A stretch of 43,170 nucleotides of DNA from a virus. Positions 16,130-26,244 of the stretch are shown here, piece after piece; within the stretch, counting starts at the first letter, position 1, and each line of letters opens with the position of its first letter. The stretch is taken from positions 1 to 43,170 of the IMG/VR virus record IMGVR_UViG_3300021182_000196. One strand, given 5' to 3'. The notes beneath the pieces were generated by a model, which made no database searches, was not told the origin of the DNA, and saw nothing but the letters and a program-made list of their open reading frames with translations. The translations under genes were made by a program, and so were the position numbers.

Positions 16130-16770
16130 AGACAGTTCTCAGTTGTCAGTTATCAGTTCTTAGCCGGTTGAGAGTCGTGCTGCTCTTCGCTGTGATGGGC
16201 TGCTTGGCCAGTTGCGGCGGCGGGGGTGGCATCCCTTGCTTTGCCCAGGGCGCGGTGCGCGCGGCGCTGCCTGTGGCACCTATCGGCACCTTCTACTCAC
16301 CAGAGGCCAACCTTGAGGCGATGGACGTGGCCGCGCTGACTTCCGCGCAGCACGCCATCAACCTGGCGGCCTTCAGCTTGACGGACAAGGCTATTATTGC
16401 CGCGCTGGCGGACCGTGCCCAGCATGGTGTGATTGTGCGGATCTACCTCGACCGGGGCGAGCTGCAGGCCGAGTGCCGGGGCGACGCAACCTGCGCGCGA
16501 TCTCCACTGCATATTTTGATTGGTTTATCGGGAGTGGAAATCCGGGTCAAGCACTCGAAGATTCTGATGCACCTGAAGAGCTATGCGGTGGATGCCGCTC
16601 TGGAGCGAGACGGCTCCGCCAACTTTTCCGAACAAGGCGAGCAGCGGCAGGACAACTCCGCGATCTTCAGCGGCGACCAGATGGCCGTCGGGAGATTTTG
16701 GAGGGAGTTCCAGGGGATGTGGACGCGAGCCGACAATCTGACCGTTGCCCAAGCCGTCGCCGGGCAGTAA
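16126..16770 (+). CDS. PLD-superfamily (Nuc-like) lipoprotein
   Basis: 214 residues. A hydrophobic signal (Arg-Val-Val-Leu-Leu-Phe-Ala-Val-Met-Gly) leads to Leu-Ala-Ser-Cys at 27-30 and a Gly run, a lipobox-like ending. The mature part matches single-motif phospholipase D family nucleases: Ala-Ile-Asn-Leu-Ala-Ala-Phe-Ser-Leu-Thr near 77, His143-Ser-Lys145 of the HxK motif and Gly-Ser-Ala-Asn-Phe-Ser at 163-168. The Asp expected five residues after the Lys is Leu, so activity is uncertain. The first codons are made of the CAGTTnTCAGTT repeat also seen at 25700 and 26170. A secreted, membrane-bound nuclease or lipase in a prophage suggests a cargo role. Confidence 0.75.
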   Translation: MKTVLSCQLSVLSRLRVVLLFAVMGCLASCGGGGGIPCFAQGAVRAALPVAPIGTFYSPEANLEAMDVAALTSAQHAINLAAFSLTDKAIIAALADRAQHGVIVRIYLDRGELQAECRGDATCARSPLHILIGLSGVEIRVKHSKILMHLKSYAVDAALERDGSANFSEQGEQRQDNSAIFSGDQMAVGRFWREFQGMWTRADNLTVAQAVAGQ

Positions 16771-18016: not shown

Positions 18017-18700
18017 ATGGCGAAGCCTAGACCAAAAACCGGAGAGCAGCGGAAGACCAAGCAGCCGCTCAAGATCGACCGCCTGCCGCAATCCGCGCAG
18101 GACGCGATCAAGTTGCTCTATGACCGGGGTCGCACCTGGGTGCAGATCGAGGAGCAATCCGCGCGTCCCTATAGCGCCGAGTGGGAAAAGGACGGCGGCG
18201 GCTTCATCGACTGGCCAGCGGTGGACGCGGACGCGCTCGATCTCTTTCCCGGCCTGCGCCTGGCTAAGTCCAGCTTGCAGCGGTGGTTTGATTTGCGCGT
18301 GAGCCAGGTGCGGGCGCAAGTGATGGCCGAGAGCGCCAAGGCGCGGGAGTGGGCTGGAGTCTTCGCCGGCGCGGATCTGCTGAACTCGAATGCCGCCGTC
18401 ATGAACGCCATGCGCGACCAGGTCTTCACGCTGATGCAGCAGGTTGGCCCCGGCGACCAGGCTGCGTTTCTTAAGGGCTTGAATATGCTTTCCTTGACCA
18501 TGAGTCGCCTGCAACGCGTCGATCTGCAAGCGCGGCGGGTTGCGGTAGACGAAAAGAACGTCCAGATCAAGCTCGACCTCATCAAGGACAAGGCTGGCAA
18601 ACTGCTGGGGGCAATGGAAGGCGGCGATGGTAAGCCTCCCGTGGAATTGACCCGCGAGGATCTGCTGGAAAAGGTGAGGGAGATTTATGGCGCGGTCTAA
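18017..18700 (+). CDS. small terminase subunit, DUF3486 (Mu gp27-like)
   Basis: 227 residues. The N-terminus reads Lys-Ile-Asp-Arg-Leu-Pro-Gln-Ser-Ala-Gln-Asp-Ala-Ile (19-31), followed by Thr-Trp-Val-Gln-Ile-Glu-Glu and Ser-Ser-Leu-Gln-Arg-Trp-Phe, a helix-turn-helix typical of DUF3486. That family sits directly before the Mu gp28 large terminase and is taken as its small, DNA-recognising partner. The rest is helical for oligomerisation. It overlaps the large subunit by 14 bases. It should recognise the packaging site, whose place is unknown; the repeats at 326-531 are one candidate. Confidence 0.88.
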   Translation: MAKPRPKTGEQRKTKQPLKIDRLPQSAQDAIKLLYDRGRTWVQIEEQSARPYSAEWEKDGGGFIDWPAVDADALDLFPGLRLAKSSLQRWFDLRVSQVRAQVMAESAKAREWAGVFAGADLLNSNAAVMNAMRDQVFTLMQQVGPGDQAAFLKGLNMLSLTMSRLQRVDLQARRVAVDEKNVQIKLDLIKDKAGKLLGAMEGGDGKPPVELTREDLLEKVREIYGAV

Positions 18701-20084
18701 GCAAATCTTCCTTCAATACCAGCAAGAGTGGATCGCCGACAAATCGCCCCTCAAAATCTGGAAGAAGGCGCGGCAAATCGGATTCAGCTTCTGCGCCACA
18801 TTCCGCGCGGTCACGGACCTGGTCCGCCACAAGACGCTGTGGATCGCGCTCAGTGCAGGGCAGCGCCAGTCGAACGAATTGGCACAGAAGGCGCGGGAGC
18901 ACGTAGAGGCGATTGCGCGCATCGAGCAGGCGGCGCGCGGCTACGAGTTCATCGAAAAAGAAGGCACTGGGGCGTTTGTCGAGGGCGTCGAGCAGACCCA
19001 GTCGATCATTCACTTTCCGTCGAACAAGTCGCGCATGATCTTTCTGCCGGCGAATCCGGACACAGCACGCGGCTACACCGGCAACGTGCTGGCCGATGAA
19101 TTTGCCTTTCACAAGGACGCCAAGCGCATCTACGCCGCCATTTATCCGTCGATCACGCGCGGTTATTCAATCGAGATCGGCTCAACATGCTTTGGCGAGT
19201 CGGGGATGTTTTACGAGCTGTGCGAGAAAGAGAATGGCTTCTCGAAGCACTGCACTACGATCTATGACGCCGTGGCGCAGGGGCTTGATACTGACATCGA
19301 AAAACTGCGCGAAGGTTGCCCTGACGAGGAAATCTGGGAACAGGAATACTGCTGTAAATTCATCAGCGACGCTTCGAGTTGGATTACCTGGGATCAGATC
19401 ATCGCGGCGGAGTCGGGATCTGCCACGATTGACCTGCCAGATTACTTTATTCCCGTCGGCGAGCTTTACCTGGGTGTAGATATTGGCCGCAAGAAGGATT
19501 TGACGGTCATCTACCTGCTCGAAAAGGTGCTGGGAGTCTTTTGGACTCGCGCGGTTGTGCGGATGCGCGCCACGCCGTTTGCCGTTCAGCGCCAGCGGAT
19601 TGATTGGTTCTTTGAGAATCTTCCGATTCGTCGCGGTTGTTTTGACTCAACCGGCATCGGAATGCAGATGGCTGAAGAGGTTCAGGAAAAGTTTGGCAGC
19701 TACCGGATTGAGCCGGTGACCTTCACTTTGGCCATAAAAGAAGATCTGGCCGTTCGGACGCGGCGCAGCTACGAGGATATGACGATTCGCATCCCGGATG
19801 AGCGCGGTCTGCGCAACGCGATTCACGCGGTGCGCAGGTTCCCGACGACAGCGGGTAACTTCCGCTTTGACGCGGATCGCACCGAGGCGGGACATGCAGA
19901 TGAATTCTGGGCGCAGAGTCTGGCGCTGCTTGCTGGCAGCTCTGGAGCCGAGGCGGCTGCGAGCAGCAGTGACGCCCAGGTGGGTGGACGTGAGCAGAGC
20001 TTTGGGCGCGGCGAGGCATTGACCGGCGTAAGCCGGGGCGGCGACGACTTTGTGCGCCGCGACAGGAGATCGAGATGGGCTTGA
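18687..20084 (+). CDS. terminase large subunit, Mu gp28-like
   Basis: A 465-residue packaging motor. The ATPase has a Walker A-type Lys-Lys-Ala-Arg-Gln-Ile-Gly-Phe-Ser at 26-34 and Walker B Leu-Ala-Asp-Glu at 135-138. The RNase H-like nuclease shows Gly-Val-Asp-Ile-Gly at 263-267, Asp271 and Phe-Asp-Ser-Thr-Gly at 319-323. Length and order match Mu gp28-type terminases that package by headful from an integrated template. GGAG lies four bases before the ATG. The last 40 residues are Ser/Gly-rich and poorly conserved. Confidence 0.93.
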   Translation: MARSKQIFLQYQQEWIADKSPLKIWKKARQIGFSFCATFRAVTDLVRHKTLWIALSAGQRQSNELAQKAREHVEAIARIEQAARGYEFIEKEGTGAFVEGVEQTQSIIHFPSNKSRMIFLPANPDTARGYTGNVLADEFAFHKDAKRIYAAIYPSITRGYSIEIGSTCFGESGMFYELCEKENGFSKHCTTIYDAVAQGLDTDIEKLREGCPDEEIWEQEYCCKFISDASSWITWDQIIAAESGSATIDLPDYFIPVGELYLGVDIGRKKDLTVIYLLEKVLGVFWTRAVVRMRATPFAVQRQRIDWFFENLPIRRGCFDSTGIGMQMAEEVQEKFGSYRIEPVTFTLAIKEDLAVRTRRSYEDMTIRIPDERGLRNAIHAVRRFPTTAGNFRFDADRTEAGHADEFWAQSLALLAGSSGAEAAASSSDAQVGGREQSFGRGEALTGVSRGGDDFVRRDRRSRWA

Positions 20085-21706
20085 TTTCAGGACGGATCAA
20101 AAACTTTCTTCAACGCCGCTCGACGGCTGAGCGCAGCGGCCTGACGCTGCTCAACCTGGACGAGGCCAAGCGATGGGACGCGGCGCGGGCCGAGGGCGAG
20201 GCCGCCGCGCGGGCCAAGCTCGCCGCAGAGGCCGTTGCGCCGCAGCTCTTCACACTGACCACCGGAGACGGTGAAGATCCGGGATTCCGGCGCATCACCA
20301 GCCTGGCCACGCTGCGCGATCTGAATCCACTGATGCACGACCGGATGCTACAGGTCTGTTACTTCCTGCGGGTGACGACGCCCTTCGGCAAGCGCATCGT
20401 GGAGATCATCACCAACTACACGGTGGGCAAGGGTATCCGCGTTACCGCCAAAGATCCGCGCGTCCAGGAAGTGATTGACGCCTTCTGGAACGACGAAATC
20501 AACAACATGGACGAGAACTGCTCCATGTGGTGTGACGAGCTGACCACCTTTGGCGAGCTATGCCTGCCAGTGGCCAAGAACCCGGTGAGCGGCAAGGTGC
20601 GGATCGGCTACATCGATCCGATGAACATCGACACCATCCAGTTTGCTGAGATGGCCACCTCGGACGGAACGGCCAGCATCAACATTCCGTATGCCGTGCG
20701 CCTGCGCCGCGAGGTGGGCGAAGTACTGCAGAAACCGATGCTGCTGGTGCAGCGCAGCGAAGATCCCAACGCTGAGAACTATGGACGCCTTGCCGGAGAG
20801 TGCTTCTACTTCACGCTCAACAAAGCAAAGTCCGCGAGCCGGGGCTTCAGCGAACTCTTCGCCCTGGCTGACTGGATCGATCTCTTTGACCAGATGATCT
20901 TCGACTTTGGCGACAAGGTCCGCTTCCTGAACAGCTTTGTTTGGCACTACACATTGAGCGGTTCCGATGCGAAGAAGGTGGAGGAGTACAAGAACAAGCT
21001 CACCAAAGACCCTCCGCGCCAGGGCGGCGTGATGGTGACCAACGAGCAGGTCAAGATCGAGGCGCAGACGCCAGAATTCCATGGCCAGGACATGGCATCC
21101 GTGGCGCAGATGACAAAGCTATACGGCCTGGGCGGCGCGGGGCTTCCTCCGACGTTCTTCGGCGACGGCGTTGACGCCAATCGGGCAGCGGCCGTCGAAA
21201 TGAATGCGCCGGTGCAGCGCAAGATTCAGGACCGGCAGAATCACCTGGCCAGGTGCCTGACGAGCGTGCTGAACTTTGTGATTGAGTCGGCACAGGATGC
21301 AGGCGTGCTTCCGCCGAGCGTGGATGTGGGCTACAACATCGAGTTCCCAGAGATTGCCACGCGGGACTTGGAAAAGGGCGCGCAAACGTTATCAGGCGGT
21401 GCGACTGCGCTTCAGGTCGGTCAGCAAGAGGGATGGGTTACCGGCCAGACGGCGGCGCGGGCATTCCACACGCTGCTCTCGGAGATCGGCGTGGACATCG
21501 ACGACAGCCAGGAAGAGTACGAAAACGCGCAGCAGGAAAAGGAAGACAAGGCGGCCAAGCAGCAGGATCAGTTCTTTCCGCAGTCGTCCCTGGGCGCGGC
21601 GCTGAAGTCGCTGAAGACGCCGCCGCCGAACGCGGCTGACGAGGCTGGCAAAGGCCCAGATAACGATCTGCTTGACGCGGATGAAGCAAAGACGCTGGTG
21701 CAATAA
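20075..21706 (+). CDS. portal protein
   Basis: 543 residues, ATG 20075 overlapping the terminase by ten bases, with AGGAG upstream. Features of phage portals are visible: an N-terminal basic helix, a conserved Thr-Pro-Phe-Gly-Lys-Arg-Ile-Val-Glu-Ile-Ile-Thr-Asn-Tyr region (about 107-120) and a Gly-Glu-Leu-Cys-Leu-Pro turn. The late Gly-Leu-Pro-Pro-Thr-Phe-Phe-Gly-Asp-Gly and Asn-Arg-Ala-Ala-Ala-Val-Glu-Met motif is in the stem region. The C-terminal 60 residues are charged and disordered. It differs from the Mu gp29/DUF935 type, suggesting mosaic origin of the head module. It forms the dodecameric vertex for packaging. Confidence 0.9.
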   Translation: MGLISGRIKNFLQRRSTAERSGLTLLNLDEAKRWDAARAEGEAAARAKLAAEAVAPQLFTLTTGDGEDPGFRRITSLATLRDLNPLMHDRMLQVCYFLRVTTPFGKRIVEIITNYTVGKGIRVTAKDPRVQEVIDAFWNDEINNMDENCSMWCDELTTFGELCLPVAKNPVSGKVRIGYIDPMNIDTIQFAEMATSDGTASINIPYAVRLRREVGEVLQKPMLLVQRSEDPNAENYGRLAGECFYFTLNKAKSASRGFSELFALADWIDLFDQMIFDFGDKVRFLNSFVWHYTLSGSDAKKVEEYKNKLTKDPPRQGGVMVTNEQVKIEAQTPEFHGQDMASVAQMTKLYGLGGAGLPPTFFGDGVDANRAAAVEMNAPVQRKIQDRQNHLARCLTSVLNFVIESAQDAGVLPPSVDVGYNIEFPEIATRDLEKGAQTLSGGATALQVGQQEGWVTGQTAARAFHTLLSEIGVDIDDSQEEYENAQQEKEDKAAKQQDQFFPQSSLGAALKSLKTPPPNAADEAGKGPDNDLLDADEAKTLVQ

Positions 21707-22608
21707 TGGCAGACTCACGCGCACAGGCTTACGCTCAGCAGCTCAACCTGCTCACCAGGCAGGCTGAGGCTCTGACGCCTGAAGCGCGGCGGCGGATCAT
21801 AAAACTCCTGGACGACGCCAATCGCGAGATCCTCGCGGACGTGGCGCGCAGCCAGCCAGAGAGCTACAACGCGGCTCGGCTGCAAGCGTTGAAGGCGCAG
21901 ATTGAACGCGTGATGTCGGAGTTTGCCAATCAGGCCAGCAGCCAAGTCAGCGACCTGCAGCAGAAGGCATACGAGCAGACGGCAGTGCAGATCGACGCCA
22001 CGGTGGCGGCTGGCACTGGCACACTGGCAGTGCATCCGGTTATGGACCGGGCAATGGTTCAGGTTGTGCAAGGATACACGGCAGACCTCATCAGCGGTCT
22101 GACGCACGACATGAGCGCCAAGATCAACGCGGCGATTCAGCGCGCGGCAATGGGCGGCATGAATCTGCAGCAGCTCGTCACACAAATCGGCACCACGCTG
22201 GAGGGAGGCCAGTTCAGCGGACTCTTCAGCCAGGTGGGCGAGCGGGCCATGAGCATCGCCACCAACGAGATTATGCGCGTCCAATCACTGGCCTCTGTGG
22301 CGCGGATCAACGATTTAAGCGAAAACCATCCCGGCCTGGGCAAACGTTGGCTGCATATCCCGGTGGCGCGTGTGCCGCGCATCGGGCATCTACTGGCGGA
22401 CGGCCAGGTGGTCAAACCCGGAGAGCCATTCATTGTCGAGGGCGAAGAGTTGCAATATCCGCGCGATCCATCGGGATCGCCGGAAAACACCATCAACTGT
22501 CATTGCCTGGTGCAACCCTACGTGAGCGATGACGATCTCAAACCTACAGACCAGGAGCGCCAACTGCTGCATAGCTACGGCGTCTCGGTCTCAACCAGCG
22601 AAGCATAG
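21706..22608 (+). CDS. Mu F-like minor head/morphogenesis protein
   Basis: 300 residues joined to the portal by TAATG. The N-terminal two thirds are helical. The C-terminal part carries the Mu F/SPP1 gp7 domain: Ala-Thr-Asn-Glu-Ile-Met-Arg-Val near 186, then Lys-Arg-Trp-Leu-His, an Arg-Ile-Gly-His turn, Gly-Gln-Val-Val, Pro-Phe-Ile-Val-Glu-Gly-Glu-Glu-Leu-Gln-Tyr-Pro-Arg-Asp-Pro and the closing Asn-Thr-Ile-Asn-Cys-His-Cys. This protein helps build the head around the portal and may be ejected with DNA. Confidence 0.93.
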   Translation: MADSRAQAYAQQLNLLTRQAEALTPEARRRIIKLLDDANREILADVARSQPESYNAARLQALKAQIERVMSEFANQASSQVSDLQQKAYEQTAVQIDATVAAGTGTLAVHPVMDRAMVQVVQGYTADLISGLTHDMSAKINAAIQRAAMGGMNLQQLVTQIGTTLEGGQFSGLFSQVGERAMSIATNEIMRVQSLASVARINDLSENHPGLGKRWLHIPVARVPRIGHLLADGQVVKPGEPFIVEGEELQYPRDPSGSPENTINCHCLVQPYVSDDDLKPTDQERQLLHSYGVSVSTSEA

Positions 22609-23109: not shown

Positions 23110-23192
23110 TAACAGCATCGATTGCAGCTTCCCGGTCGTAGTTGAGAATCCTAAAACATCTAAGAAATAGCTGAACTATTCCACGTTTCACA

Positions 23193-23231
23193 CCTGTTTC
23201 AGGTGCTTCATGATGAGGCACCTGAAGCAGG
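23193..23231 (+). promoter_or_regulatory. 14-bp hairpin before the capsid gene ribosome site
   Basis: CCTGTTTCAGGTGC (23193-23206) pairs with GCACCTGAAGCAGG (23218-23231) over 14 positions (13 Watson-Crick, one G-U in RNA) with an 11-base loop. No T-tract follows. It stands 15 bases before the ATG at 23247, just ahead of the AGGGAG ribosome site, in a 137-bp gap. It could stabilise the capsid message, be an RNase III site or an attenuator. Confidence 0.6.
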
Positions 23232-23246
23232 GATACTCAGGGAGAT

Positions 23247-25688
23247 ATGAATCACTCCCTGATATTTTTGCTCGCGGCTGAAGCTGATCTCTCACTCGAT
23301 GAGCAGCAGCAGCTTATCAACGGCGAACTGCGCGAGTCTTTTGGCTTAGACGAGCAGGGTTGCCAGCGCTTTTACCTCTTCGAGACGTTCAGCGATTACT
23401 TGATTGCGCGCGGCCCGGAGTCGAAGCTCTTTCGTATCTCCTACACCATCGCCGGAGACGAAGTAACTTTTGGCGACGCGCAGGAAGTGACCACGGCATA
23501 TGTGCCTGTGGCCGAGAGCTGCGAGTTCTTCTCCGCCGAAGCGGACACCACTCCACAATCTGGAAAGTATAAGATCGGCGCACTGAAGGCTGGCTGGGGC
23601 AACGGCGCGCTCAACGGCTCGACGGTGCCTCATTACTATCCCCCGGCGTTTGTGGCGCTGGTGGCCGAGGCTTTGAACGGGAAGCCTTTTGGCCGCCGCC
23701 ATCCCGATCAGCGCGGAGCCGATCCCACGGGCGCGGCTGACCCTGACCGCATTGCGGGCTGGCTTGAAGGCGGATCGTTTGACGGACAGCGCGCAGTGGC
23801 CACAGTGAACCTGTTTACTGCGGAGTCTGTACTTCGCTCGAAGCTCGACGAGGCGCGAGATAAGCGCACCATCAATAATTTCGCCGTCTCGATGCTGGCT
23901 TCGGTTGGCTACAAGCCTGGAGTGATTGAGGGCAAGCAATGCCTGGTGGCGGAAGACCTGGGTACGCTCTATTCCGTCGACCTTTGCGCGCGAGCTGGCG
24001 CGGGCGGCGAGTTTCTGACCGCTGCCGCTTTTGCGGCCAACGATGTTTCAGCGGCGCAACTGCGCGCCGTCAACGCTTCAACCACTGCGATTACTCCCAA
24101 TCGCCCCAACCGCGGCGGCGCTGCCAGCGCTACCGAAGGAGCACCGATGAAGAAGATAATCCTTCAACTGCTCGAAGCGCTTCGGCTGAAGAATGCCGCG
24201 CGTTGCGCCGAGCTGAGCTTGCAATTCAATACCGTGGCCGAGGCTGACTATCCAGCGTTTCTCGACACGGTGACCACCGCTTTTACTGAAGCGCCAGCTA
24301 CTGCGACCGCTGCCACCGTCCTGACTGCCGAAGCTGCTCAGGCGACACTGACCGAGGCGCATCGCATTCAGAGCCGCAATCGCATCGATACTTCACTGGC
24401 GGCTTCCAAGCTGCCCAAGCCCGCGCAGGATCTGGCGCGGACGCATCTGGAGCTGGCGCTTACCTCCGAGGCTGATCTTCCCCAGGCAAAGATTGATGCG
24501 GAGCTTACCGGCGTCCGCACAGCCTTTGCCGCCTTCAACAACGTCGGCCGTATTCACCCGTCGGCCATCGTGGTGCTGGACAGCGGCGACAAGATGCAGC
24601 TCGCGATGGAAGCGGCCATCGGCGTCAAGGACTCGATTGGCAAAGGCGTCCCGGCCTTCCGCAGCCTGCGCGAGGCTTACACCACGGTCACCGGCGATTA
24701 CGACCTGGCACGGCTGACTGGCGGCGGCGGTTTCTCCGGACAGCGGATGCTGGCTTCGGAAGCTGTGTTGACCGCAGACTTCCCAAACATCTTGCTCAAC
24801 TCGATGTCCAAGCGCCTCTTGCAGGACTGGGCGGAACTCGCGCTCGACGGCTTGAGCAACCTCTACACCAAGCAGTCGATCAGTGACTACAAGCAGCAGG
24901 ACAGGGTCCGCGAGGGCTACTTCAGTGAGCTGCCGATTGTGGGTGAGGGTGGCCTGGGTGACGCGGGTAACACAGGCACCGGGACGGCGAGCTACCTGGA
25001 AGTGACCCGCCCCACGGACGAGCACATCTTCTATACGCTGCAAAAGCGTGGCGGGATGCTTTCGATCTCGGAGGAAACAATCCGCAACGACGATCTCGGT
25101 GCGATTGCGCGTTTCCCTGGACGCCTTGCGCGGGCTGGACGCTGGACGCTGAAGAATTACATCACCAGCTTCTTTGTGAACAACCCGACGTACACGGGCG
25201 ATTCCGTGGCGTGGTTCAATGGGGCGCACGCCAACCTGGGCGCACTGGCGCTTTCGCAGGATGCATTGATTGCTGCAGAAATCTCGCTGCTGACCCAGAC
25301 CGAGAAGGATTCCGGCGAACCGTTGGGATTGCCTCTGGACTGGATCATGGTGCCTCCGGCGCTGGCCGCCACCGCGCGCCAGATCAACCAGACCAACACT
25401 GCCGGTTCCAACGCGTTCTTCCAGCGCTTTGGCGTCAACAACGAGCGCATCTACGTCAACGAAAAGCTGACCGACACCAATGACTGGTATTACGGAACGA
25501 AGCAAGAGAACGCTCCGTTCTTGGAGATTGGCTTCCTCGACGGCATCGAGAATCCGCAGATCTTCCTGGCCAACCAGCCCACCATCGGCACTCAGTTCAC
25601 GATGGACGAGCTGCAATACAAGGTCAAGATGGTCTTCAACGGCGCGATCATCGACTTCCGTGGAGTCGGCAAGAACGTCGTAGCCTAA
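23247..25688 (+). CDS. fused prohead protease, scaffold and major capsid protein
   Basis: 813 residues in three parts. Residues 1-255 look like an S78-type prohead protease: Tyr-Tyr-Pro-Pro near 130, His152 (Gly-Arg-Arg-His-Pro-Asp), Ser215 (Phe-Ala-Val-Ser-Met-Leu) and Tyr-Ser-Val-Asp-Leu near 242 as catalytic candidates. Residues 301-425 are helical and Ala/Thr-rich, a scaffold. Residues about 430-813 form an HK97-fold/Mu gpT-like capsid (Tyr-Lys-Gln-Gln-Asp-Arg-Val-Arg-Glu, then Glu-Asn-Ala-Pro-Phe-Leu-Glu-Ile-Gly). Met301 has its own AAGGAG. A minor full-length protease form and a major scaffold-capsid form of 513 residues are therefore likely, as in lambda C/Nu3. Self-cleavage would free the mature capsid. 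Confidence 0.9.
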   Translation: MNHSLIFLLAAEADLSLDEQQQLINGELRESFGLDEQGCQRFYLFETFSDYLIARGPESKLFRISYTIAGDEVTFGDAQEVTTAYVPVAESCEFFSAEADTTPQSGKYKIGALKAGWGNGALNGSTVPHYYPPAFVALVAEALNGKPFGRRHPDQRGADPTGAADPDRIAGWLEGGSFDGQRAVATVNLFTAESVLRSKLDEARDKRTINNFAVSMLASVGYKPGVIEGKQCLVAEDLGTLYSVDLCARAGAGGEFLTAAAFAANDVSAAQLRAVNASTTAITPNRPNRGGAASATEGAPMKKIILQLLEALRLKNAARCAELSLQFNTVAEADYPAFLDTVTTAFTEAPATATAATVLTAEAAQATLTEAHRIQSRNRIDTSLAASKLPKPAQDLARTHLELALTSEADLPQAKIDAELTGVRTAFAAFNNVGRIHPSAIVVLDSGDKMQLAMEAAIGVKDSIGKGVPAFRSLREAYTTVTGDYDLARLTGGGGFSGQRMLASEAVLTADFPNILLNSMSKRLLQDWAELALDGLSNLYTKQSISDYKQQDRVREGYFSELPIVGEGGLGDAGNTGTGTASYLEVTRPTDEHIFYTLQKRGGMLSISEETIRNDDLGAIARFPGRLARAGRWTLKNYITSFFVNNPTYTGDSVAWFNGAHANLGALALSQDALIAAEISLLTQTEKDSGEPLGLPLDWIMVPPALAATARQINQTNTAGSNAFFQRFGVNNERIYVNEKLTDTNDWYYGTKQENAPFLEIGFLDGIENPQIFLANQPTIGTQFTMDELQYKVKMVFNGAIIDFRGVGKNVVA
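24136..24149 (+). promoter_or_regulatory. internal ribosome-binding site and start within the capsid fusion gene
   Basis: AAGGAG at 24136-24141, a five-base spacer and ATG at 24147-24149, in frame at codon 301, exactly between the protease and the scaffold-capsid parts. Codons just after it (Met-Lys-Lys-Ile-Ile) look like a gene start. Confidence 0.75.
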
Positions 25689-25723
25689 CGGTAACTTTCA
25701 GCCTTCAGTTGTCAGTTTTCAGC

Positions 25724-26164: not shown

Positions 26165-26185
26165 ACAGCCGTCAGTTGTCAGTGG

Positions 26186-26244
26186 TCAGTTATCAGTAAT
26201 GACTCCCGACCGCTGGCAACTGAGAACCGAGAACTGATAACTGA
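26186..26244. repeat. 12-bp inverted repeat made of CAGTTATCAG units, overlapping a start region
   Basis: TCAGTTATCAGT (26186-26197) and ACTGATAACTGA (26233-26244) are perfect inverted copies with a 35-base interval that holds further CAGTT/AACTG relatives. The right arm ends two bases before the ATG at 26247, where a ribosome site should be and none is recognisable. The left side continues GTCAGTTGTCAGTGG from 26171. The same unit occurs at 16131-16155 and 25704-25720. Confidence 0.6.

Follow-up and report, generated by a model that had tools for sequence, protein, structure and literature searches.

In the C/Nu3 system of phage lambda, an in-frame internal start with its own Shine-Dalgarno (SD) sequence lies at the boundary between protease and scaffold, and allows the scaffold to be made without the protease. 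Nested protease/scaffold starts that yield scaffold without protease have also been described in phage Mu I/Z and in gene 27 of PaMx73 (PMC4378225). All three of these systems have the major capsid protein in a gene of its own. In HK97, the scaffold (delta domain) is an N-terminal extension of the capsid protein gp5 and is removed by the gp4 protease (PMC8508860), with the protease and the delta-capsid encoded by two adjacent genes. In the MD8-like Pseudomonas phages, protease, scaffold and capsid are joined in a single gene, gp5, which is treated as one product in that work, with an internal start unmentioned (PMC8508860). The protease-scaffold-capsid fusion as such is already known, both from NCBIfam and from the MD8 study. 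Such a fused gene poses a stoichiometry problem, as shells need hundreds of capsid subunits and few proteases.

The window analysed here is the whole stretch of a virus record, 43,170 bases in length. Positions 23247–25688 of its plus strand, on which all of the gene features given below lie, form a single open frame of 813 codons, starting with ATG and containing zero internal stops. The encoded chain has a computed mass of 87.4 kDa, and the same protease-scaffold-major capsid fusion is present in relatives. An earlier note had claimed that the prohead protease and the major capsid protein share one frame, and the uninterrupted 813-residue frame bears this out. The chain is composed of a protease-like part (residues 1–300), a predicted helical scaffold (residues 301–434) and a capsid part (residues ~447–813). 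The gene is located in a head module, where the terminase large subunit (18687–20084), the portal (20075–21706) and a Mu F-like head morphogenesis protein (21706–22608) precede it in that order, and tail genes lie 3' of it. A search for relatives in the genome contigs collection found none.

Since sequence searches of residues 1–300 against Pfam and the PDB returned no match, this part had to be compared by fold. The AF2 model, built from 14 relatives, has a mean pLDDT of 74, and its best solved Foldseek match is T4 gp21 (5jbl; probability 1.00, E 1.4e-3). This is the sole confident match in the PDB, though a weak one, as the TM-scores are low (0.28–0.47) and no PDB entry matched below E 0.001. 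Among the viral models of BFVD, 57 matches were obtained at E<=0.001, down to 6e-7, many of them named prohead protease. In addition, hhalign gave 97.7% for the protease part against the N-terminal part of the fusion protein of Microcystis phage Mae-JY22, in which a GLSID motif of the kind typical for prohead serine proteases is present. S215 and D245 are kept in all 52 aligned relatives and H152 in 52 of 53, and these near-invariant residues (positions 23889, 23979 and 23700, respectively) are candidates for the catalytic residues. By fold likeness, the model thus assigns residues 1–300 to the T4 gp21/herpesvirus-assemblin-like prohead proteases, with the predicted domain spanning residues ~1–260 (23247–24026), in agreement with the proposal that residues 1–255 fold as a protease. 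T4 gp21 is a stand-alone protein with ~14% identity, whereas the protease of the window is part of a fusion.

The window shares the three-part, one-gene architecture of MD8 gp5, but the MD8 protease is ClpP-like while that of the window has a gp21-like fold. Two NCBIfam models of such fusions were compared with the window. NF045541 (prohead protease/MCP fusion) scored 150 bits against a cut-off of 525 (E 8.5e-44), with only residues 349–810 aligned, and NF045540 (ClpP-like protease/MCP fusion) scored 123 bits against a cut-off of 475 (E 1.3e-35). The fusion architecture is shared with both and the scaffold-capsid part matches, but the protease part (1–348) does not align, and in place of the ClpP-like N-terminus of NF045540 the window has one that matches the T4 gp21 fold. 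Some fusions among the relatives (L003–L005, L007 and L012) bear an extra N-terminal domain of ~90 residues (KTKSVGGKEYPASDFAYVGDPED...) ahead of the protease, which the window lacks.

The protease is connected to the scaffold by a linker (24021–24146) that varies in sequence and length among the relatives, and AF2 confidence is low at residues 288–300. The following residues 301–434 (24147–24548) are all-α in the AF2 model, with pLDDT mostly 67–83. Helical and flanked by protease and capsid, this region is consistent with a scaffold or delta domain, a role suggested by its position. The capsid part (24585–25685) was identified by Pfam PF25209 Phage_capsid_4, an HK97-fold capsid family, which matches residues 503–807 with 103.1 bits against a gathering cut-off of 27. 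The AF2 model of residues 301–813 was kept out of the fold search, because its capsid part is poorly modelled (mean pLDDT 47.9). In an unfused relative (L018), the first residue of the capsid corresponds to residue ~440 of the fusion, and we therefore placed the scaffold/capsid junction near residues 430–447. As in HK97, the scaffold is an N-terminal extension of the capsid, but the two adjacent genes of HK97 are overlapped here in one frame.

The linker holds an internal SD, AAGGAG (24136–24141), separated by a spacer of 5 nt from an in-frame ATG at codon 301 (24147–24149); direct reading confirmed both elements as the earlier note had given them. The SD stretch ahead of this ATG reads GAAGGAGCA. 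The strength of the SD duplex is -8.0 at codon 301 and -4.2 at codon 1, and in the window the mean dG is -6.4 for presumed true starts and -2.4 for internal ATGs. The RNA around the internal start is moderately structured (-23 kcal/mol, z -1.3). An SD that matches or exceeds this strength (dG <= -8.0) precedes 7 of the 188 in-frame ATGs lying inside the window's likely genes, and significance of the SD and ATG at codon 301 by themselves was rejected for that reason. The predicted product of the internal start has 513 residues (301–813) and 55.7 kDa, would begin with MKKIILQLL, and is co-terminal with the 87.4-kDa chain. The idea that the capsid is made separately from codon 301 is supported as to the separate start, but the product would be scaffold plus capsid, as the title of the earlier note has it, and not the capsid alone.

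To assess conservation, 92 sequences including the window were placed, and 56 were left after those with >95% identity had been dropped. Three of these do not have the region (two are cut by contig ends and one is unfused), leaving 53, with the window among them. In all 53, the boundary carries a start codon in frame: 52 ATG, of which 45 are in the same alignment column and 7 are one or two codons upstream, and 1 GTG. An SD core (GGAG, AGGA or GAGG) is found within 18 bases of this codon in 53/53, while the remaining conserved Met columns of the fusion gene lack one. Where the ATG is displaced by one or two codons (L157–L159, L161, L165, L171 and L175), its SD is displaced along with it. In L181, GTG takes the place of ATG, so that the long form has Val instead of Met there while a start codon is retained. 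In L016, AGGAG lies in a different frame and encodes other amino acids. The SD core is spelled by differing peptides, namely EGA, QLGGE, NTGA/RNTGA, EIGAN, SRSIT and IQGGF. The nearest upstream glycine is encoded by GGA in 45 of 49 sequences, as compared to a gene-wide usage of 14.4% GGA and 64% GGC. When the upstream codons were recoded synonymously with each gene's own usage, the observed mean SD strength was reached in 3 of 2000 shuffles. Such shuffle counts overstate independence because the relatives share descent, above all in the ClpP-like clade described below. That the signal survives altered peptides, frames, spacings and start codons is a stronger argument than these counts. The sequences thus show selection for the internal start signal, which across the relatives is real and far beyond chance.

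With its conserved in-frame internal start and SD at the protease/scaffold boundary, this gene resembles lambda C/Nu3, Mu I/Z and PaMx73 gene 27. It differs from them in that the capsid (residues ~447–813) is not encoded separately but is the C-terminus of both predicted products. The earlier suggestion that the nested logic of lambda C/Nu3 is combined here with a complete capsid fusion therefore agrees with our data. Relatives with a naturally split gene, in which the protease is encoded apart from the scaffold-capsid, were sought and none was found. A nested start that would yield a scaffold-capsid chain appears to be new here, while the fusion and nested protease/scaffold starts were each known before. 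Keyword searches of the open-access literature, which can miss a paper, returned no report of a nested start in protease-scaffold-capsid fusions.

The first start (codon 1) looks weaker than codon 301, both in its SD and in the predicted folding of its surroundings. The codon-1 SD is buried in an 8-bp hairpin, TCAGGGAG/CTCCCTGA (23237–23262, plus strand), with the ATG in the loop, and an 18-bp hairpin (23193–23231) lies ahead of it. The folding z values here are -3.7 and -6.6, the latter for the leader. These two hairpins could serve in regulation or processing. The SD-hiding hairpin was sought in the relatives and not found, and is hence not conserved. Among 51 relatives, with the first ATGs picked by a rule of thumb, 46 have a stronger SD at the internal start than at the first ATG.

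We propose, with a probability of about 0.85, that one mRNA gives two co-terminal proteins, with the nested start yielding the major scaffold-capsid chain and codon 1 the minor protease-scaffold-capsid chain. Initiation at codon 1 would produce few copies of the 813-residue, 87.4-kDa chain, and initiation at codon 301 from the embedded SD would produce the 513-residue, 55.7-kDa chain in presumably larger amounts. Because the two chains have scaffold and capsid parts in common, they would co-assemble into the prohead, which would then hold a few protease domains inside, brought by the long chain. During maturation, the protease would free itself and strip the scaffold from the shell protein, presumably by cleavage near residues 430–447. 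In this view, the abundant precursor of the shell would be the short chain, and the protease would enter the prohead on the long one. The conserved internal start would in this way resolve the stoichiometry problem of the fused gene.

It is also conceivable, although unlikely, that only the full-length fusion is made, with a self-excising protease present at 1:1 to the capsid, and that the SD and ATG are a by-product of a linker peptide EGA-x-M. The frame is indeed a single stop-free one, the TEGA linker peptide is common in close relatives, and an SD/ATG of this kind is expected by itself a few times per genome. However, the SD persists under other peptides (QLGGE, RNTGA, EIGAN, SRSIT and IQGGF), Met is replaced by a GTG codon in L181, and the GGA bias is 45/49 against 14%. 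The conserved start codon, the SD and the synonymous GGA choice thus argue against a single full-length product. A separate internal promoter that gives the short form its own mRNA would require the internal SD and ATG equally. This explanation has a small chance of being correct, as a sigma-70-like scan, which covers that type of promoter only, found no promoter ahead of codon 301, its lone site being at 23187–23214 and at chance rate. Finally, the SD-like sequence could be non-initiating and stall elongating ribosomes, giving the protease time to fold ahead of the scaffold's emergence; its location at the domain boundary in all four clades examined would suit such a pause. We regard this as very improbable, since a pause would not require that a start codon follow in frame at the distance proper to an SD, whereas such a codon is present in 53/53, in one case as GTG for ATG.

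The two-product reading is extended by three more clades of fused genes. A search for conserved internal ATGs found one in every clade, preceded by an SD and located where protease and scaffold meet. In the Mae-JY22-like clade, with a gp21-like protease, it is present in 7 of 8 fused members (5 aligned and 2 with the ATG one or two codons off) and absent in L035. Of the two clades with a ClpP-like protease, the JBD68/mEp043-like one has the internal ATG and SD in 16/16, and the Nsp-JY21-like one has the ATG in 7/7, with an SD dG <= -5 in 6. A conserved EEF/KEF peptide, SD-like by itself, could be behind part of the signal in the ClpP-like clade. In the GenBank records examined for phages of these clades, only the full-length gene is annotated. 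Tripartite fusions are likely to set their protease:capsid ratio generally by such a nested start between protease and scaffold, which would have been either kept or independently evolved in fusions whose proteases, gp21-like or ClpP-like, are unrelated. Many 'fusion' capsid entries in databases would then miss the main shell precursor. Two co-terminal products are predicted in a widespread phage group, among them culturable phages of Pseudomonas (JBD68, internal start at codon 224) and E. coli (mEp043, codon 211), whose short forms would begin with MPEALKTLL or MPKSIRNM. The abundant precursor probably begins elsewhere than at the 'capsid' start annotated in such records.

Stand-alone capsids of the same family, 350–384 residues long, are found in L018 (2953–4107), L193/L194 and L033 (2459–3511). 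These unfused relatives lack both the protease and the scaffold, and their capsid genes sit downstream of helix-turn-helix genes; the loci are possibly satellites or other small elements. In the window itself, tandem 7-base repeats TCAGTTN occur at 16132–16157, 25705–25723 and 26172–26244, inverted around 26172–26244. They amount to 11 matches against 0.5 expected, and lie in or beside apparently intergenic stretches.
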